64,000 nucleotides of DNA, taken from Lysinibacillus macroides (lineage in GTDB: Bacteria; Bacillota; Bacilli; Bacillales_A; Planococcaceae). The first letter of the stretch is position 1; the number at the start of each line of letters is the position of its first letter. Positions 4,932 to 63,924 of this stretch are shown here, in pieces. Under the pieces are notes generated by a model. That model was not told the DNA's origin, did not search any database, and saw only the letters and a list, made by a program, of their open reading frames with translations. The position numbers and the translations under genes are program-made. The stretch is taken from NCBI RefSeq assembly GCF_001281525.1, contig NZ_LGCI01000005.1:478545-542544 (forward strand). The letters are read 5' to 3'.

Positions 4932-7226
4932 ATGGCAGTAAGTAAGAAAAAAAAAGCGACTAAAAGCAAGGCAACAACTGAGAAAAAAGAAATGCATCCG
5001 CTTATGTATGAAATTCTAGGTTTACTCTTCATTGCGTTAGCAATCATTATGATTTTTGAATATGGTGTGATTGGGCGTACGTTACAAACGATCGCCATGT
5101 TTTTTTTAGGCAATTTGCATTTTGCTGTGCCATTTATGCTCGTATTTATTGCACTATTATTGATGATTGGCCGTAAAAAAGTAGGGATGAAGGATCGTTT
5201 AATACTGGGGATGTTGCTGATTATTATGAGTTTAACCATTTTTAGTCATGGGATCTTATTTGAGCAATTATCAAAATCAGGTGGTTTATTATCTGACTCT
5301 GTGTTACGTGAATCATGGCGAATTTTAATCAGTACAGATGGCATTATACACCGTAGTAACGCTTTAGGTGGTGGGATGCTTGGGGCGCTTTTATACAGTG
5401 GATTGCATGTTCTCTTCGAAGCAACAGGCGCAAAGGTTGTAGCGTGGGTTATTTTCTTTATTGGCTTAATTCTTGTTACAGGAAAAGCATTAGTGCCTTA
5501 TTTAGCAGAAAAAATGCCTGATTTATTTGGGAAATGGAAAAAAAAGCATCATGAAAAGAAGAAAAATACACCTAAAAAGCCAAATAATCGTCGCTCGAGA
5601 GCAGAACATACAGATGAAATAGCTGCAGAGGAGCAAACTACTGATCATCCAGTATATGAAGAGGAAGAACCTTCTCATGAGCCAATTATTTCTGCCTTTA
5701 CGCAAAACGTGTCACAGGAGAGAGATGGGTTTGATATTCCACATATGGTGGAAAATGAACTGGAAGAAGCAGTGGAGGATGTCCATATCCAAGGTACGGA
5801 CGCTGTAGAAAATGCAGATTATCAATTGCCGTCTTATCATTTATTACAATTACCACCTCAGCATGATCAAAGTGGTGAATATTCGGTGATTCAAGCAAAT
5901 GCTAAAAAACTTGAACAGACATTGCAAAGCTTTGGTGTCAAGGCGAAGGTGACACAGGTTCATTTAGGACCAGCCGTTACAAAATATGAAATTTTACCTG
6001 ACATAGGTGTAAAAGTAAGTAAAATCGTTAATTTACAAGATGACCTTGCTTTAGCGCTTGCTGCAAAAGATATTCGGATGGAGGCACCCATTCCGGGAAA
6101 ATCGGCTATTGGCATTGAAGTTCCAAACAGTGAGGTAGCTATTGTGACATTGCGCGAGGTATTAGAATCGAAGGATGGTGCAAAGCCGGAAGCTTTATTG
6201 CAAGTAGCACTAGGGCGTGATATTACGGGACAGGCTGTTTTAGCAGAGCTTAATAAAATGCCTCATTTACTTGTAGCAGGTTCAACAGGGAGTGGGAAAA
6301 GTGTCTGTATAAATGGCATTATTGTCTCTATACTAATGCGTACGAAACCACATGAAGTAAAATTAATGATGATTGACCCAAAAATGGTGGAATTAAATGT
6401 CTACAATGGGATACCTCATTTATTAGCACCTGTTGTGACGGATGCGCGCAAAGCTTCGCAAGCACTAAAAAAAGCAGTTGCTGAAATGGAACGTCGTTAT
6501 GATCTATTTTCTCATACAGGGACGCGAAATATTGAAGGCTATAATGCACATGTCCAAAGAATGAATGACCAAACAGATGAAAAGCATCCAAAATTACCAT
6601 ATATTATAGTGATTGTGGATGAGTTAGCAGACCTCATGATGGTTGCGTCCAATGATGTGGAGGATTCCATTACACGATTAGCACAAATGGCACGAGCGGC
6701 AGGGATTCATTTGATTATTGCCACGCAAAGACCAAGCGTTGATGTTTTAACAGGTGTAATTAAAGCGAATATTCCTTCGAGAATTGCCTTTGCTGTATCC
6801 TCAGCCATTGATTCAAGAACGATCCTAGATATGGGTGGGGCAGAGCGCCTACTTGGTCGTGGCGATATGTTATTTTTACCTGCTGGTGCTTCCAAGCCAA
6901 AAAGGGTACAAGGCGCCTTTTTATCCGATCAAGAAGTTGAATCAGTTGTTAATTTTGTTATAGAACAGCAAAAGGCACAGTACCAAGAGGAAATGATTCC
7001 TACTGAGGAGGAAACAATTTTAGAGGAAACGGATGAATTATATGATGAAGCTGTACAATTAGTGGTCAATATGCAAACAGCATCTGTTTCTATGCTTCAG
7101 CGCCGCTTCCGTATCGGCTACTCAAGGGCTGCACGTATTGTTGATCAAATGGAGCAACGTGGAATTGTTGGGCCACCTGAGGGCAGTAAGCCTCGTCAAG
7201 TGCTTATCCATCAATATGAAAGCTAA
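4932..7226 (+). CDS. spoIIIE: DNA translocase FtsK/SpoIIIE family
   Basis: This 764-residue membrane ATPase pumps DNA through closing septa, notably moving the chromosome into the forespore. The N-terminus has four hydrophobic segments (about residues 23-45, 51-80, 88-110 and 145-190). An acidic, low-complexity linker follows (about 200-300). The motor domain has Walker A GSTGSGKS at 450-457 and Walker [13 protein letters not shown]. The C-terminal winged-helix gamma domain (about 695-760, [20 protein letters not shown]) recognises polar DNA sequences. Location after rnjB matches B. subtilis spoIIIE, although tepA and ylzJ, which usually lie between them, are not here. ATG 4932 has GAAGGTG 5 bases upstream. 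Confidence 0.95.
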
Positions 7227-30151: not shown

Positions 30152-30667
30152 ATGTTACGCAATGAACAACGAGAAGAACTTCAAACGGCGATGCGACAAA
30201 CAAAGGATAAGCGACTATTTGAGCGGTATCAGACTGTATTTCTACACCTTGAAGGAAAAAATAACGTTGAAATTGCGATGATCATTCAACGCAATCGAGC
30301 AACTGTTGGTGAATATATTAAAGCCTATAAAAAAGAAGGCATAACAGGTTTACGCATGGGGATTTCTACAGGTAAACCACATCGTTTGACCATCGAACAA
30401 CGTGCTGAGTTGGCTGAGATTGTCACAACGAAAACGCCTGCTGATGTGGGATTTGCACCGTATACGAATTGGACGCTCGCGTTACTCGTTTCACTCGTGA
30501 AACGTGAATGGGCTGTGTCCTATTCTTTACGTGGCATGTCTAAATTATTAGAACGCATGCAATTTAGTCATACGCGCCCTACCTATACGTTGGCGAATGC
30601 GGACCCAGAAAAGCAAAAAACATTTAAAGAAGAAACATTTCCTGCTTTAAAAAAAGCTATTGTATGA
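30152..30667 (+). CDS. IS630 transposase, N-terminal part (orfA)
   Basis: These 171 residues carry the DNA-binding half: a helix-turn-helix (NVEIAMIIQRNRATVGEYIK, about 35-55) and a winged-helix segment. The frame stops at TGA 30665, and the catalytic half continues in another frame starting at 30660. The overlap contains an A7 tract (30649-30655). A +1 shift, or loss of one A, joins the halves into a complete enzyme. The common -1 shift would not. Confidence 0.92.
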   Translation: MLRNEQREELQTAMRQTKDKRLFERYQTVFLHLEGKNNVEIAMIIQRNRATVGEYIKAYKKEGITGLRMGISTGKPHRLTIEQRAELAEIVTTKTPADVGFAPYTNWTLALLVSLVKREWAVSYSLRGMSKLLERMQFSHTRPTYTLANADPEKQKTFKEETFPALKKAIV

Positions 30668-31190
30668 GGAAATCGATCACCTTCTCTTTCAAGATGAGTC
30701 CATGATTCGTGACTACCAAGCCATTCAAAAGTCATGGTTTCCAAAAGGGAAACAGCGTCAAATCCCCACATACGGTAAGCATCAAGGCGTGAAATTAATC
30801 GGTACGTTAAATTATGAAACAGGTGAAATCTTCTGCGTCGAAGAAGAGAAATACGATGCAGAAGTCTTCCTGCGTTTCTTAGAAAAAGTCATTGCTCATT
30901 ACCCAAATGGAAAAATTGTCATGATCCTCGATAACGCTCGCATTCATCATGCGAAGCTCATTCAGCCTTTTTTAAAGCTGCATCAAAATCGATTACAACT
31001 GGTGTTTTTACCACCTTACAGCCCGCAATTGAATTTAATTGAGGGGCTATGGAAATGGTTGAAAGACAGCGTCATTCATAATGTCTTTTTTTCAAGTACA
31101 TCGCAAATCAAACTCGCTGTTCGTGAATTTATCCGTTGTCAAAGTGAAGATACACAAGGTATAATCGACCGACTTTGTGTTAGGTTCTAA
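30660..31190 (+). CDS. IS630 transposase, catalytic part (orfB)
   Basis: These 176 residues hold the DDE catalytic domain: first Asp in LLFQDESMIRD, second Asp in MILDNARIHHAK, and Glu in LPPYSPQLNLIEGLWKW. The TTG at 30660 has no ribosome site, so it is probably expressed only by frameshifting from orfA. The frame is open just from 30651, which places the shift within the A tract or the next few codons. Confidence 0.92.
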   Translation: MYEEIDHLLFQDESMIRDYQAIQKSWFPKGKQRQIPTYGKHQGVKLIGTLNYETGEIFCVEEEKYDAEVFLRFLEKVIAHYPNGKIVMILDNARIHHAKLIQPFLKLHQNRLQLVFLPPYSPQLNLIEGLWKWLKDSVIHNVFFSSTSQIKLAVREFIRCQSEDTQGIIDRLCVRF

Positions 31191-39785: not shown

Positions 39786-40316
39786 TTAGAACCTAACACA
39801 AAGTCGGTCGATTATACCTTGTGTATCTTCACTTTGACAACGGATAAATTCACGAACAGCGAGTTTGATTTGCGATGTACTTGAAAAAAAGACATTATGA
39901 ATGACGCTGTCTTTCAACCATTTCCATAGCCCCTCAATTAAATTCAATTGCGGGCTGTAAGGTGGTAAAAACACCAGTTGTAATCGATTTTGATGCAGCT
40001 TTAAAAAAGGCTGAATGAGCTTCGCATGATGAATGCGAGCGTTATCGAGGATCATGACAATTTTTCCATTTGGGTAATGAGCAATGACTTTTTCTAAGAA
40101 ACGCAGGAAGACTTCTGCATCGTATTTCTCTTCTTCGACGCAGAAGATTTCACCTGTTTCATAATTTAACGTACCGATTAATTTCACGCCTTGATGCTTA
40201 CCGTATGTGGGGATTTGACGCTGTTTCCCTTTTGGAAACCATGACTTTTGAATGGCTTGGTAGTCACGAATCATGGACTCATCTTGAAAGAGAAGGTGAT
40301 CGATTTCCTCATACAA
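39786..40316 (-). CDS. IS630 transposase, catalytic part (orfB), copy 2
   Basis: Identical 176 residues to the copy at 30660-31190, with the DDE residues in FQDESM, LDNARIHH and NLIEGLW. It is read in a different frame from orfA, as in copy 1. Confidence 0.92.
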   Translation of the reverse strand: MYEEIDHLLFQDESMIRDYQAIQKSWFPKGKQRQIPTYGKHQGVKLIGTLNYETGEIFCVEEEKYDAEVFLRFLEKVIAHYPNGKIVMILDNARIHHAKLIQPFLKLHQNRLQLVFLPPYSPQLNLIEGLWKWLKDSVIHNVFFSSTSQIKLAVREFIRCQSEDTQGIIDRLCVRF

Positions 40317-40824
40317 TAGCTTTTTTTAAAGCAGGAAATGTTTCTTCTTTAAATGTTTTTTGCTTTTCTGGGTCCGCATTCGCCAACGTATAGGTAGGGC
40401 GCGTATGACTAAATTGCATGCGTTCTAATAATTTAGACATGCCACGTAAAGAATAGGACACAGCCCATTCACGTTTCACGAGTGAAACGAGTAACGCGAG
40501 CGTCCAATTCGTATACGGTGCAAATCCCACATCAGCAGGCGTTTTCGTTGTGACAATCTCAGCCAACTCAGCACGTTGTTCGATGGTCAAACGATGTGGT
40601 TTACCTGTAGAAATCCCCATGCGTAAACCTGTTATGCCTTCTTTTTTATAGGCTTTAATATATTCACCAACAGTTGCTCGATTGCGTTGAATGATCATCG
40701 CAATTTCAACGTTATTTTTTCCTTCAAGGTGTAGAAATACAGTCTGATACCGCTCAAATAGTCGCTTATCCTTTGTTTGTCGCATCGCCGTTTGAAGTTC
40801 TTCTCGTTGTTCATTGCGTAACAT
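40309..40824 (-). CDS. IS630 transposase, N-terminal part (orfA), copy 2
   Basis: Identical 171 residues to the copy at 30152-30667, with the same HTH region and the same A7 tract before its stop. That both copies keep the two-frame layout means it was either present in the copied parent or is a functional frameshift signal. Confidence 0.92.
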   Translation of the reverse strand: MLRNEQREELQTAMRQTKDKRLFERYQTVFLHLEGKNNVEIAMIIQRNRATVGEYIKAYKKEGITGLRMGISTGKPHRLTIEQRAELAEIVTTKTPADVGFAPYTNWTLALLVSLVKREWAVSYSLRGMSKLLERMQFSHTRPTYTLANADPEKQKTFKEETFPALKKAIV

Positions 40825-58502: not shown

Positions 58503-59905
58503 CACTAGCGTCGCATAAACAAAGTCTGAATTTTCAGTTTTGGTTTTTCCCGATTTTAATGAAAAATCGAAAACACTAAAACCGAGGTAGTAAACATCCA
58601 TTTTTTTACTATAACCTTTGACGAGTGCAACAGAGACTAGAAAGCTTTATGGGACGCTATTTTCTTGGATTTTGCGTAACCAAATGTGTGCGGATTTCCA
58701 TAAAGCAGCTTTTAAATACCGACTAATTTGTAAGTAGGTTCGCTTACTTTTCGTGTTCAACTGGGCCAGTACATTCAAACAGTATACAATCATCGCGATG
58801 TAAACTTGGTTATGCACAGCTTGCTCGCTCTGCCCGTAAAACTTTTTGATATTCAAATGTTGTTTCATCCATTTGAAAAACAATTCGATTGCCCAGCGTG
58901 ATTTGTATAGTTCAGCGATTTCATCTGCACTTAAATCAAATCGATTCGTGAGTAATTGTAACTCGTTTCCTTTTGTATCCAGTACTTTTATCAAACGAAA
59001 CACATTCTCAGGTCGATTTTGCGTCGTTCCGATGACGACCATTTCATCGGATAAAACCGGTGAATTTTCCGCTAACTCAAATGGTTCAATCAGGCGTATA
59101 ACCGCATTTTTTCTCAAACGAGAGACGAAGAAGTAGCCTTCATCTGTCATGCGATCGAACCGTTCATAATCCAAATAGCCACGGTCAAACACATACATGC
59201 ATTCTTTGTCATCAACGAGTACTTCAAGCTGACCGCGATCATGTTCAACCGCGTTTGTAAGCACCGCTTTGTCTGGATAGGAACAACCTTTTTCCATAAA
59301 GACAAGGCGCAAATGAAGTTTGATTCCAGATTTGGTTTTACGAAATTTTGCCCATCTATGATTATTCAGGTTCAATGGTAAAGTGCTTGAATCAATGATT
59401 TTCGGTGGAGTCGTCATTTTTCGTCTATTTTGAAAATCTGTCTTTTCATGAATTTGTGCAACTAAGTCTAGAAAAATCGTTTGAAAAAACTCAGTCGGAA
59501 TTTGATTCAGTCGTCTACCTAATTGAGAGAAACTGATCGAATTGAGGTTCGTTGCGTTCTGCAATTCTTCCGAAAAGACACAATCACTTAATGCCCGCAA
59601 ACTCTCCGTTTCGTGGAGTTGTGCAAATAGTAATAATCTCATAAATGAAGCCATATGAAGCTTCTTTGTATAGTAATTTAATCGGGAGGCTTTCACCAGT
59701 TCTTCAACTAAGTCAGTCGAAATAGGTGAAAACCATTGTTCAAATGATGTTTTTCGTGTAAACTTATCCATGCGATGTCCTTTATTTTGGATTTGGATAG
59801 GTACCTACCACCAAACCATTATAAAGGCTTTTTTTATGCGATTGATAAGTTACAGAAAATTCTAATTATAATAGTAGGCTTAATTATTTTAATGCGACGC
59901 TAGTG
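58503..59905 (-). mobile_element. IS4-family insertion sequence with 9-bp target duplication
   Basis: This 1,403-bp element starts CACTAGCGTCGCAT (58503) and ends with the complement ATGCGACGCTAGTG (59892-59905). It is flanked by perfect 9-bp direct repeats, which fits IS4-group transposition. One intact transposase lies on the minus strand. Perfect ends and duplication point to a fairly recent insertion. The 200 bases to its left (58290-58493) contain no credible intact gene. Confidence 0.93.
58647..59771 (-). CDS. IS4-family DDE transposase
   Basis: This 374-residue enzyme has the three acidic residues in IIDSSTLPLN, MYVFDRGYLDYERF and the IS4 signature YKSRWAIELFFKWMK, which fits Y-x2-R-x3-E-x6-K. 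The N-terminal DUF4372-type domain is present (SFMRLLLFAQLHETESLRAL). The frame is complete, so the element may be active. Confidence 0.94.
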   Translation of the reverse strand: MDKFTRKTSFEQWFSPISTDLVEELVKASRLNYYTKKLHMASFMRLLLFAQLHETESLRALSDCVFSEELQNATNLNSISFSQLGRRLNQIPTEFFQTIFLDLVAQIHEKTDFQNRRKMTTPPKIIDSSTLPLNLNNHRWAKFRKTKSGIKLHLRLVFMEKGCSYPDKAVLTNAVEHDRGQLEVLVDDKECMYVFDRGYLDYERFDRMTDEGYFFVSRLRKNAVIRLIEPFELAENSPVLSDEMVVIGTTQNRPENVFRLIKVLDTKGNELQLLTNRFDLSADEIAELYKSRWAIELFFKWMKQHLNIKKFYGQSEQAVHNQVYIAMIVYCLNVLAQLNTKSKRTYLQISRYLKAALWKSAHIWLRKIQENSVP

Positions 59906-60275: not shown

Positions 60276-62546
60276 TTAAACTTCATTTACTTGAATACGA
60301 ATAGTCATCCCTTCACCAACTTTCGAATCTAGTGTGAATTTTCCATTAAAAGCTTGAACGCGCTCCTGCATACCACGAATACCCATCGAATCAGTACGTA
60401 TAAGATCATCCACGTTATAGCCTACACCATCATCTGTATAAAGAATTTCAAAGCCTTTCTCTGTGCTTAGTAACTGCACATCCACTGTATCAGCATACGC
60501 ATGTTTGAGCGCATTGTTTAATAGCTCCTGGAACAGTCGATAAATCATTAAATTTAAACGTTCATCCTCTAAATAAAGACGGTCTGTCGTATAAATTAAC
60601 ATAAAATCCACACGTTTATGAATTTTTTGAATCAGCTTTTCTAGTGCTGCATTTAATCCCAATGTATCCAATAATGGCGGCTTTAAACTCTCGCAATACT
60701 CTCTTAAATCATTTAAGGAAATCACCATCTGTTCATGCACCTTTTCAAGCTGTGACGGGATCATTTCTACGTCCTTCCAATGTACTAGCGCATCCATTTC
60801 TCTAGCGATATGAAGCTGTTCCTGTAAAATCGTATCATGCAGTTCTTGGGCCAATTGATATTTTTCTTCCTCAAAACGTAGCCATAGTAATTTATTGAGC
60901 CATGATAATTCTTGATTACCAGATGCTTTCTTATGCTTGAGCTGCTGTAAAAGCTCCTCGATCATTTTGGTATTTTCAATAAAATTATTTAAGTATAACA
61001 GTAATAATTCAAGCCAGAGCAATTCCTCATCTTTCAGGTAAATGGCTTGACGATGGTCGATGACAAGAATTCGTTTAAAGCGAGCATCCTGATGAATAAA
61101 GGCTAGGTAAAAATAATCTGTTTTTTGAATATCCCCTAAGCTTAATCGTTCCAGCAATGCCTCATCAATGTGCTCCATATATTCCTTGGATGGATTGTTC
61201 AAGATAACCTGATGAGTGTGAAAATCGTAGGTAAGCACAGAAACATGTTCTACCTCAAGCTGTAGCGCCACTTCCTGAGCAAATCGTGCCAACAAATCTT
61301 CAATTTTCACCACTCTACCAATACTATCGATAGTAGTATGCAGATGATGAATATAGTCATCTTTGGTCGAGAATAGAATCTTGCGCTTATGATAATCCAG
61401 CCGCTCCTTTATATAAAACAGTGCCATTAACGAAAGAAAGGTAAAAAGGAAAATCTCTGTGAGGCGGGCCAACGATAGGCCCGTTAAAAAATAAAGCCCT
61501 AGTAATAGCCAAAGGGCAAAGATAAAGGAAAAATAAGAATAATAGCGTAACCTCGAAATATAATACTCCATATCAAAGATCCGTTCAGTAAGCTGTGTGA
61601 AAATAAAGCTAAAAGGGATGAACATTAGGAATATTGAACATATATCGGCTGACAATAAAAAATTATGGAAAAAAATTTTTGGTAACGCATAAAGAAAAAG
61701 GAATGGTATAAAAGGGATAATAATACTACCTAACAATATTTTTAATTGTGGTACTTTGTATTTAATATAACTAATCACCATTATACTCAGAATAATTACG
61801 AGTAATAAGAAAAATAAACCTAAAATAATATTAGATACTGCATAATGTATACTATTGGCAATAATACCAAAAATACTCAAACCTATTACAATTAGCGGAA
61901 GTACATAAAAGATTTTAATGTTTTTTATAAATAACCATCTAGTATTCAAAAAGTCAAAGTATTCTTTTAAAAAATGTAATAAAAGCACTAGGCAAAGTAG
62001 CATACTACCGCGATTTACTATAATTCCAAAGATATTTAATACTCCTGAAGCGCCAATACTTAAGTAGGCTAGAGAAACAGTTAAAATAAATAATATTAAT
62101 AAATTAATTAAAATGGTATTTTTAGGTTTTAAATATAAGTATATAGAAATTATTAATGATAATAAGTAAAAAATTGTTGGGACAAGAAAAACAGAATAAA
62201 ACAGTTGGATGATATCAAAGGATTTAATATTTATGTTGATTGAATTGCCATCAGACTTCATTAAAGTCAATTCATTTGCAGTACGAATCACTAAATCATA
62301 CTTAATAGTAGCAATTTCATCTACATTTTTCCCATTTATATTTAATACGATATCTCCAGGTGATATTTGATGTTTTACTGCCCACTCTTTATAATAGGGA
62401 TTCGTTATTATCCAAGCGCCATTTTCTTCTTTAACTTCTATATTAATAAAAGGCTTACTATAAATGATAAATAATAGATATAGCCCTATTATTAAATATA
62501 CACTTATAGTAAGCCAAAACCATTTATTAGTTGATTTTAATTCCAC
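60276..62546 (-). CDS. comP: ComP-type quorum-sensing sensor histidine kinase
   Basis: This 756-residue protein has one N-terminal helix (about 10-28), an outside loop with a PDZ-like stretch (about 35-108: ISPGDIVLNINGKNVDEI) and eight to nine more membrane segments to about 380. A GAF-like region (about 405-515) leads to a HisKA_3 dimerisation box with phospho-acceptor His570 (LAQELHDTILQEQL). The HATPase domain has N box ELLNNALKHA (674-683), DDGVG (705-709) and MGIRGM (721-726). Length and layout are those of ComP, the receptor for the ComX pheromone. GTG 62546 overlaps the comX-like gene by 10 bases. No response-regulator gene follows. Confidence 0.9.
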   Translation of the reverse strand: MELKSTNKWFWLTISVYLIIGLYLLFIIYSKPFINIEVKEENGAWIITNPYYKEWAVKHQISPGDIVLNINGKNVDEIATIKYDLVIRTANELTLMKSDGNSININIKSFDIIQLFYSVFLVPTIFYLLSLIISIYLYLKPKNTILINLLILFILTVSLAYLSIGASGVLNIFGIIVNRGSMLLCLVLLLHFLKEYFDFLNTRWLFIKNIKIFYVLPLIVIGLSIFGIIANSIHYAVSNIILGLFFLLLVIILSIMVISYIKYKVPQLKILLGSIIIPFIPFLFLYALPKIFFHNFLLSADICSIFLMFIPFSFIFTQLTERIFDMEYYISRLRYYSYFSFIFALWLLLGLYFLTGLSLARLTEIFLFTFLSLMALFYIKERLDYHKRKILFSTKDDYIHHLHTTIDSIGRVVKIEDLLARFAQEVALQLEVEHVSVLTYDFHTHQVILNNPSKEYMEHIDEALLERLSLGDIQKTDYFYLAFIHQDARFKRILVIDHRQAIYLKDEELLWLELLLLYLNNFIENTKMIEELLQQLKHKKASGNQELSWLNKLLWLRFEEEKYQLAQELHDTILQEQLHIAREMDALVHWKDVEMIPSQLEKVHEQMVISLNDLREYCESLKPPLLDTLGLNAALEKLIQKIHKRVDFMLIYTTDRLYLEDERLNLMIYRLFQELLNNALKHAYADTVDVQLLSTEKGFEILYTDDGVGYNVDDLIRTDSMGIRGMQERVQAFNGKFTLDSKVGEGMTIRIQVNEV

Positions 62547-62695
62547 AAACGATTGTCAACGCCTAAATCTTCATTAAACGAATCCAAAATTGCCTTTTGC
62601 TCTAGTGCTGTCAAACCAATTAGAGAAGCCTTTTTTTCTTTTAACAATGTCACTAATGCTGGATTTTGCTCTAAATATTGAATCATGTTAATCAT
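62537..62695 (-). CDS. comX: ComX-like pheromone precursor (short gene overlapping comP)
   Basis: This 52-codon gene is read from ATG 62695 to TAA 62539-62537, with GGGGAG 5 bases before the start. The protein aligns along its length with B. subtilis ComX: MIQYLEQNPALVTLLKEKKA and SLIG in the middle correspond to [20 protein letters not shown] and CLIG. It ends DLGVDNRLWN with Trp51 next to last, where ComX precursors carry the tryptophan that ComQ prenylates. It overlaps comP by 10 bases, as expected for a comX-comP pair. The alignment with B. subtilis ComX is from memory. comQ is not found upstream. Confidence 0.85.
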   Translation of the reverse strand: MINMIQYLEQNPALVTLLKEKKASLIGLTALEQKAILDSFNEDLGVDNRLWN

Positions 62696-62793
62696 AAAAT
62701 CTCCCCATTCTTCTAGTTTTTTATAGTCACAACTATTAGCTACTAAATCTCTAAAACAAAGGAATTATTAACCATATTTGAAACTATATTTTT

Positions 62794-62821
62794 ATTATAC
62801 TATCTATTCCCAATAATTCAA
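62794..62821 (-). promoter_or_regulatory. Sigma-A promoter of comX-comP
   Basis: On the minus strand, TTGAAT (62821-62816), 16 bases, then TATAAT (62799-62794), giving a leader of about 90 bases before comX. Confidence 0.6.
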
Positions 62822-62951
62822 CATTATTTTCTGTAAATTCCAAAAAACTCCAAAATTCACTATATTTCTTCTTATATATTTTTCATTTTAAAGAACTATT
62901 TTATTTTTAAGAGAACTTTAATATTTTTTAATATAATGAGAAAATTGAAGT

Positions 62952-62997
62952 AAAAAGCAGCTATTTTTTGTGTTTATTTAAAAAATAGCTGCTTTTT
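62952..62997. terminator. Perfect 18-bp hairpin between divergent comX and deacetylase genes
   Basis: AAAAAGCAGCTATTTTTT (62952-62969) pairs fully with 62980-62997. T runs on both strands make it a possible bidirectional terminator or attenuator, although it lies between divergent genes where none is needed. Confidence 0.65.
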
Positions 62998-63069
62998 AAT
63001 TTTTTGCATTTTTAAAAATAATCAGAATTATGTATATTTTTGTTGTAATGAAATGAAGGAGGAATGAAC

Positions 63070-63924
63070 ATGCAAAGTACTGGGAAAGTGAGAATTCCTG
63101 AGGGAAAGAAAGTCGCAGTAAACATTGGTGTAGATTTTGATGCAGCATCTGTATGGTATGGCACGTTTGGTCAAACATCTCCAGCCTATTTAGCAAGAGG
63201 AGAGTTTGGAGCTGAGGTCGGTGTGCCAAGGTTACTAAATTTATTTGAGAAATATAATATTACCACAACATTTTGTATTCCAGGACATACGGTAGATACA
63301 CACACAAAGACAGTTAAAGACATTATTAGAGCTGGACACGAAATATGTCATCACGGCTATGCCCATGAAAATCCAACAGATATGAGCTATGAGCAAGAGG
63401 AATCCATTATGTTAAAGGGTTTAGAGGCTTTAAAACGAGTTGGGGTTGAGCCAGTGGGTTATCGTTCCCCAGCATGGGATTATAGTCCAAATACATTAAA
63501 GCTATTAGAAAAATATAATTTTAAATATGATAGTAGTTTAATGGGGAATGATTTACATCCATATCGACCAAGAGAAGTAAATGTCGATTTTGACAATGGC
63601 AACACGTTTGGCGCTCCAAGTCACATTATTGAAATTCCCGTTTCATGGTATTTAGATGATTTCCCAACCCAAGAATATGTGATTGGAGGGGGAGAGGGCC
63701 TTCGCTCAAACGTAGAAGTATATGAGCGCTGGAAATCTATTTTCGATTATGCAGTCGAGCATGAAAAGGGGGCCTGCTATATTTTAACTGTTCATCCTCA
63801 AACAATAGGACGAGCACATAATATTCAAATGCTGGAAAGGCTAATTCGATATATGGAAGAGAAGGGAGCTTGGTTTACAACGCTTGAAAATATTTGCTCA
63901 GCATACGAGGAAAGCGCAAATTAA
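63070..63924 (+). CDS. Polysaccharide deacetylase-family (NodB-like) protein
   Basis: This 284-residue protein has the NodB fold: NIGVDFDAASVWYG (first metal Asp), FCIPGHTVDTH, HEICHHGYAHENP (the H-x3-H metal box), GYRSPAWDYSP and the late LTVHPQ. The acidic-tip and DFD pattern resemble the PuuE-allantoinase and peptidoglycan-deacetylase branch rather than chitin deacetylases. No signal peptide is visible, which favours a cytoplasmic substrate. AAGGAGGA is 6 bases before ATG 63070; the ATG two codons earlier abuts that site. Its downstream neighbour (63956) has not been identified. Confidence 0.85.
   Translation: MQSTGKVRIPEGKKVAVNIGVDFDAASVWYGTFGQTSPAYLARGEFGAEVGVPRLLNLFEKYNITTTFCIPGHTVDTHTKTVKDIIRAGHEICHHGYAHENPTDMSYEQEESIMLKGLEALKRVGVEPVGYRSPAWDYSPNTLKLLEKYNFKYDSSLMGNDLHPYRPREVNVDFDNGNTFGAPSHIIEIPVSWYLDDFPTQEYVIGGGEGLRSNVEVYERWKSIFDYAVEHEKGACYILTVHPQTIGRAHNIQMLERLIRYMEEKGAWFTTLENICSAYEESAN

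Follow-up and report, generated by a model that had tools for sequence, protein, structure and literature searches.

In the 64,000-nucleotide stretch of the Lysinibacillus macroides genome that we analysed (the window), a small comX gene overlaps the gene of a ComP-type kinase, and neither comQ nor comA stands beside them, so the locus does not make up a ComX system by itself. It is probably a split ("satellite") pheromone-receptor pair, to which ComQ and ComA would be supplied in trans by the complete comQXPA locus of the same genome. As five such pairs (hereafter XP) accompany one complete set in this genome, and as XP pairs occur in most of the sampled species of the genus, several private signals may use a single enzyme and a single output. 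The reading is supported by 33 XP loci whose fetched surroundings gave no comQ or comA match, by the arrangement of these genes in L. piscis KH24 (G016), by the covariation of ComX tails with ComP sensors, by the identity of the phosphoacceptor domains and by the constraint on the ComX core.

The initial annotation had proposed a 52-codon ComX-like gene directly before a ComP-type kinase, overlapping it by 10 bases and having its own ribosome site, and all of this was borne out (Table 1). The resemblance to ComX, for which a profile search had been advised, also held: the product matches the Pfam ComX family (PF05952) with 40.2 bits (E 3.1e-10), above the curated cut-off of 25, and the NCBIfam profiles gave no ComX match on it. 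The tryptophan said to adjoin the C-terminus is indeed the penultimate residue, and the host, described as Lysinibacillus-like, is a genome of the Lysinibacillus group. However, the DNRLWN tail is not as singular as it had been thought to be, as ENRLWN ends a ComX in two other genomes (loci L081 and L102). The ComX-ComP reading itself stood as far as the ComX gene upstream of a ComP-type kinase is concerned, and it had overlooked that comQ and comA are absent from the locus. Over the 39 core codons of the 33 XP genes, the pooled dN/dS is 0.14 (the pairs are not independent), versus 0.48 for the tail. This core constraint, the occurrence of the XP type in five copies in the genome and the presence of ComX in 32 of 32 genomes of the genus make the window comX a real gene, beyond chance, and we infer that its product is a putative secreted, prenylated quorum-sensing peptide.

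Table 1. Features of the window locus, and CGCCA-N5-TGGCG sites of the L. macroides genome.
Feature	Position	Strand	Basis
comX (XP type), 52 aa, ATG start, C-terminus DNRLWN	62537..62695	-	ORF, PF05952, core dN/dS
comX-comP overlap, 10 bases	62537..62546	-	ORF coordinates, comP GTG start at 62546
GGGGAG, ribosome-binding-like (Shine-Dalgarno-like) site of comX	62701..62706	-	sequence; 5 bases before ATG
comP (XP type), 756 aa, His570, HisKA_3 + HATPase_c, putative multi-helix membrane sensor with possible PDZ-like first loop	60276..62546	-	Pfam, relatives, model
Promoter-like TTGAAT-16-TATAAT, conserved among XP loci	62794..62821	-	10/12 consensus matches
Leader stem 5' arm, TATAGTTTCA	62779..62788	-	sequence, XP leader comparison
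Leader stem 3' arm, TGTGACTATA, 9/10 pairs	62722..62731	-	sequence, XP leader comparison
Transposase-like ORF downstream of comP, where comA stands in comQXPA	58647..59771	-	named by eye from sequence
CGCCA-N5-TGGCG site of L020, upstream of comQ	C13:232668		
CGCCA-N5-TGGCG site of L020, after comA	C13:236906		
Further CGCCA-N5-TGGCG sites	C8:442768, C8:561027, C8:561090, C8:965561, C11:323916, C11:323980		

The kinase domains of the window ComP exceed their Pfam cut-offs (HisKA_3 27.8 bits for a cut-off of 24, HATPase_c 39.4 bits for 26.4), and both are found in 18 of 18 relatives. On the sensor side, the PDZ profile reaches 18.9 bits, under its cut-off of 23.2, and at a loose threshold (E<=0.1) PDZ_2 and PDZ match 12 and 11 of the 18 relatives, respectively. 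The structure model of residues 1-335 (pLDDT 82.4, from a 53-sequence alignment) retrieved nothing from the PDB at E<=0.001 with Foldseek; the top ranks were GPCR chains, CtpB came at rank 5 with a weak E of 0.015, and the PDZ proteins CtpB and CtpA were matched weakly (E 0.015 and above) over about 85 columns. The first extracellular loop of the B. amyloliquefaciens ComP was modelled as PDZ-like, according to the accessible part of that report (PMC9620489).

Neither a ComQ nor a ComA match was found in the 18 kb around the window locus. Elsewhere in the window, two insertion sequences (30152-31190 and 39786-40824) carry the same two ORFs in opposite orientation and bracket about 8.6 kb containing a large repeat-rich protein gene, in a composite-transposon-like fashion. 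A long hairpin with a T-run (62951-62998), which looks like a terminator, lies between comX and the divergent gene.

When the genome was searched with the DNA of the window region, similar DNA was found at four other loci, and the profile search detected six ComX genes over the cut-off. Only one of them belongs to a complete comQ-comX-comP-comA locus (L020); the other five, window copy included, are XP pairs without a comQ or comA match in the 10-18 kb fetched around each. Their ComX cores are much alike and their tails differ (DNRLWN in the window, EFGVWY, SQDLIWF, LESTIWY and LENGFWF elsewhere), and the ComX of L020 ends in ESQIWN. In two of the five pairs (L024 and L025), comP is broken by a transposase-like ORF (named by eye), and an intact comP accompanies four of the six ComX genes. 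Across the genus, a gene family (F2) precedes 11 XP loci, L022 included, and 14 XP loci stand before F0; L022 is the only one of the five own-genome copies to have these neighbours. The only thing that the surroundings of the window copy share with these neighbourhoods is one small ORF family (F27), found at L088 of G016; most likely, therefore, the window pair is an additional copy in a different place. Among the neighbours, sequence alone suggests glycine cleavage genes, a gene for an S-layer-type protein and a rhodanese-like ORF. The DNA of the window copy is 99-100% identical to that of L023 along some 700 bases, which cover the linker and the start of the kinase (comP codons about 350-580), then 84-92% in the next four 100-base windows, and 53-73% in the sensor, a patchwork such as gene conversion could leave.

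A comparison within the genus had also been advised by the initial annotation: ComX matched at E<=0.001 in 32 of 32 Lysinibacillus genomes, the one under study included, and the comQ-less pair type is found in 26 of them. These counts are lower bounds, since the profile misses divergent ComX: at the same threshold it had no match in the 14 control genomes, which included B. subtilis, and it may have overlooked ComX genes in G016 and elsewhere. The 73 ComX matches that were fetched (67 with about 4 kb on each side, except that L083 runs into a contig end, plus six from the own genome) fall into 38 comQXPA loci, 33 XP loci with neither comQ nor comA, and 2 loci with comQ and no recognised comP or comA; four matches are under the Pfam cut-off (21.7-23.4 bits), none of them XP. 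The XP pairs are distributed as five in the own genome, three in G021, two in G013 and one in each of 23 others. Their comP is full length in 29 loci and broken in 4, two of which are in the own genome, and all 33 XP ComX have a tryptophan within their last three residues, second to last in 31. A search for relatives with the window ComP alone found none; with an alignment as the query, it found 58 loci, the close ones bearing Lysinibacillus titles and a few of lower identity coming from Solibacillus, Ureibacillus, Viridibacillus, Sutcliffiella and Bacillus.

All 26 XP genomes have comQ and comA elsewhere. One strong ComQ match (59-100% identity) is found in each of the 32 genomes, and exactly one ComQ match at E<=1e-4 in 18 of the 26 XP genomes. 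In G016, an intact comQ is separated from an intact comA by about 100 bp that contain nothing else, comX-comP is absent from this place, and the sole ComX detected is that of the XP pair L088, on another contig. From their pN/pS against five genomes (comA 0.14-0.27 and comQ 0.33-0.40, the two reference pairs giving 0.23-0.26 and 0.24-0.27), both genes look kept in G016, though the constraint on comQ is somewhat looser. A ComP-ComA system of a third type (L213, see below) is present in L. piscis too, and an unrecognised signal may exist there. In the own genome, L021 (4507-8093) has a kinase gene and a regulator gene after a distant ComQ-like gene; no ComX was recognised there, and the locus is reminiscent of the unusual com-like loci described in the accessible part of Dogsa et al. 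2014 (PMC4008528). We rejected this gene as the enzyme of the satellites, because a second ComQ match is absent from 18 of the 26 XP genomes.

The sensors of the 29 full-length XP ComP form one clade in a FastTree of 67 sensor sequences (support 0.917), which the tree of the kinase part did not recover. Across these 29 pairs, in Mantel tests that remove shared ancestry only partly, tail distance follows sensor distance when the kinase is controlled (partial r 0.496, p 0.0001), and no residual link is left between tail and kinase given the sensor (r 0.018, p 0.43). ComX tail and ComP sensor thus covary, which is the property of pherotype pairs. The correlation is 0.491 without the own genome (n=26), 0.542 with one pair per genome (n=25) and 0.561 with one per kinase cluster (n=15), and it reaches 0.735 in 31 comQXPA loci. 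The trees and Mantel tests cover the XP loci with a full-length comP, the four others being left out, and the comQXPA Mantel tests, dN/dS and promoter-array counts omit seven divergent loci (L066, L079, L086, L112, L113, L117 and L118). When ComP N-termini (first 140 residues) were compared by blastp, each of four own-genome XP copies went with a tail group of its own in other species: the window copy with ENRLWN/LDLRLWN (L081 and L102, both ENRLWN, being among its best matches), L024 with STIWY, L025 with TGFWH/SSGFWF and L023 with SLIWY/GLIWY. The whole-sensor tree, in which L024 and L025 were not included, agrees with blastp for L023 and groups L022 with copies of G006 and G007, but it places the window ComP beside L060 (tail EWGLWN), unlike the blastp grouping.

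In XP genomes (one pair per genome, n=25), comA distance correlates more with kinase distance (r 0.85) than with sensor distance (r 0.47), and the corresponding values in 31 comQXPA loci are 0.82 and 0.72. In its phosphoacceptor (DHp) domain, XP ComP has a mean identity of 78% with comQXPA ComP, versus 58% with the third ComP type (15 of 16 loci used, L214 omitted), which favours ComA as the target. This third type, with an adjacent ComA-like regulator, was observed in 16 loci (L209, L211-L220, L222-L225 and L227), where no ComX or ComQ was recognised and where a divergent gene alongside looks secreted by eye; such a kinase is also encoded in the own genome (C1:1375540-1377717).

The sigma-A-like promoter described by the initial annotation is present, with a matching -10 ahead of 33 of 33 XP comX and a -35 block visible in their alignment; the window match taken alone is no evidence, since the scan gave 4 sites overall versus 4.1 in shuffles. 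In all 33 XP loci, the promoter is directly followed by the 10-base 5' arm of a leader stem; the 3' arm that pairs with it begins 34-51 bases ahead of the ATG, and 32-100 bases separate the two arms. Pairing is seen at 319 of 330 positions, versus a mean of 313.0 (sd 1.4) with 5' arms shuffled between the loci, none of 500 being as high. As the 3' arm was picked as the best complement in real and shuffled leaders alike, and as the arms are conserved, the covariation is modest; position 2 pairs as A-T in 19 loci, G-T in 7, G-C in 5 and otherwise in 2. All nine folded leaders close on the paired stem, and one may guess that a stem at the 5' end could protect the messenger. No Rfam family reached its gathering score at or beside the leader over 62400-63100. 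On the hairpin at 62951-62998, microRNA families of eukaryotes gave the lowest E-values, and on the 3' part of the leader a PreQ1 match stayed sub-threshold (20.4 bits for a gathering score of 39); both were taken as chance.

The XP promoter and leader are unlike the comQ promoter region. Indeed, at least 5 CGCCA/TGGCG half-sites are found in the 350 bases before comQ in 30 of the 31 main comQXPA loci, and 0-2 in XP loci; the seven divergent comQXPA loci also have 0-2, and G005 and G016 none. The 420 bp after comA hold 5-7 half-sites in 30 of the 31 main loci, for a density of 0.14 per 420 bp within the body of the locus. The own genome contains 8 CGCCA-N5-TGGCG sites, versus 0 for the reversed pattern, so that these arrays can be put forward, on their sequence and placement, as a candidate ComA operator. 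A ComA-operator pattern with a spacing of 4 was discarded, as its 2 sites both lie away from the comQ promoter, and the spacing of 5 gave 8 sites, one of them at that promoter. Three genes near the arrays look secreted by eye, and Pfam gave nothing over cut-off on five proteins encoded near them.

In the satellite arrangement, the ComX prepeptide made from comX would have a receptor kinase of its own, encoded by comP. The ComQ of the comQXPA locus would most likely recognise the conserved ComX core, modify the tryptophan before the last residue and allow the variable tail to be released. This tail would then be bound by the PDZ-like loop and the membrane sensor of its cognate ComP. The satellite ComP would pass phosphate to the shared ComA, or withhold it, and the satellite pairs would add private signals (pherotypes) to one common output. 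That the XP pair works as a signal, the prenylation by the comQXPA ComQ, the phosphotransfer to its ComA and the sign of the signal are what we infer from these comparisons. It is conceivable, and we propose it only tentatively, that these pairs are plug-in pherotype cassettes, in which an unliganded satellite ComP would drain phosphate from the shared ComA, so that each pair would add the requirement of a private signal (an AND-like gate). If this were true, a lineage that acquires a pair would take advantage of neighbours without it, and the pair would become fixed; tail and sensor would move between species as one module, the promoter, prepeptide core and remaining comP staying more alike. 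Lysinibacillus would then display a proliferation of ComX-ComP that is selected against in B. subtilis theory and experiment for activating-only receptors.

Several points stand against the satellite reading, namely the 4 broken comP out of 33, the insensitivity of the ComX profile, the absence of the XP clade from the kinase tree, a comQ less constrained in G016 than in the reference pairs, and the lack of the operator array in G016 and G005. The third ComP-ComA regulator, present in the own genome and in L. piscis, could also be the target. One alternative is that only ComQ is shared and the XP pairs signal to another regulator, either that of the third system, whose 16 loci lack a recognised ComX or ComQ and whose kinase the own genome encodes, or an unlinked one of the LuxR type. 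We find this unlikely, as the phosphoacceptor domain of XP ComP is closer to that of comQXPA ComP than to that of the third type, and as the comA of G016 stays beside comQ although comP is gone from there. The absence of comQ from all 33 XP loci could otherwise mean that XP ComX act unmodified or through another enzyme, for which the second, distant ComQ-like gene of L021 would be at hand. This is quite unlikely, given the tryptophan near the end of every XP ComX, the core that these peptides share with those of comQXPA, the single ComQ match of 18 of the 26 XP genomes, and the comQ that G016 keeps without an adjacent comX.

The pairs could finally be decaying remnants, that is, comQXPA duplicates that lost comQ and comA, were spread by insertion sequences and are drifting out. 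The transposase-like insertions in two of the five own-genome comP, the two further loci broken elsewhere, and the location of four of the five own-genome copies outside the XP neighbourhood common to other species all go in this direction. It is nevertheless improbable, since 29 comP are full length, the ComX core is constrained, tails covary with sensors, promoter and leader are conserved, XP pairs occur in 26 of 32 genomes, and the only ComX detected in G016 sits in such a pair.

The satellite pairs can be compared with known systems, as far as the accessible parts of the reports describe them. B. subtilis comQXPA resembles XP in its ComX prepeptide with a C-terminal tryptophan, in the order comX then comP, and in the variability of ComX tail and ComP sensor among pherotypes (PMC6334282); XP differs by the lack of comQ and comA at the locus, by a promoter region unlike that of comQ, and by the presence of several pairs in one genome, a B. 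subtilis isolate having a single ComP-ComX (PMC4771773). The Rap-Phr systems of B. subtilis also feed ComA through several paralogous signal-receptor pairs, but the Rap receptors, which respond to Phr, repress ComA in their unbound state, whereas XP consists of membrane kinases and ComX peptides (PMC4771773, PMC6334282). In the same genus, the complete comQXPA locus reported by Dogsa et al. 2014 is a relative of the XP pairs; this survey, which scored loci as full or incomplete, found that two Lysinibacillus species have two com loci each, and it may have seen comQ-less, comA-less pairs, which its accessible part does not mention (PMC4008528). No report of comQ-less comX-comP pairs was found in the open-licence literature, and such a pair, lacking comA as well, appears to be new as a repeated genus-wide module. 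According to the accessible part of Even-Tov et al. 2016, each B. subtilis isolate has one ComP-ComX, an added one is disadvantageous, and no bacterium was known with parallel activating quorum systems (PMC4771773). The 26 of 32 genomes with extra ComX-ComP pairs are a natural system for testing this rule: either XP receptors repress when empty, or parallel activating systems exist. In the shared-enzyme, shared-output design that is suggested here, a new private signal would cost two genes, and G016 is a natural trans-only case.

Beyond the genus, the family search gave a ComX match in 60 of 261 genomes, 28 of these outside Lysinibacillus, and no comX-comP lacking both comQ and comA was found in 20 stretches from 17 of these 28. 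Three loci of another genus, g10 (L151, L154 and L155), consist of comX-comP-comA and gave no comQ match. A fourth, L156, lies at a contig end and has this order together with comQ remnants; a ComQ match exists in 5 of 5 g10 genomes, in G066 and G067 only at another place. As these loci lack an intact comQ and ComQ is found elsewhere, the supply of ComQ in trans may have evolved on two occasions. We rejected the idea that XP is an element of plasmids or phages: the phage search gave no match and the plasmid search three, two of which are annotated as a comQXPA-type locus and a ComP-ComA locus, the third being H1. The public record of the comQXPA-type locus has a 159-bp gene annotated 'competence protein ComX'. 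This comQXPA-type locus (L169), with its annotated ComX, stands in a plasmid record labelled Stenotrophomonas rhizophila (CP031730.1), whose label or assembly may be wrong. In a genus other than Lysinibacillus, a single comQXPA locus (L149) contains two nearly identical comX in tandem, at 5127-5285 and 5600-5758.
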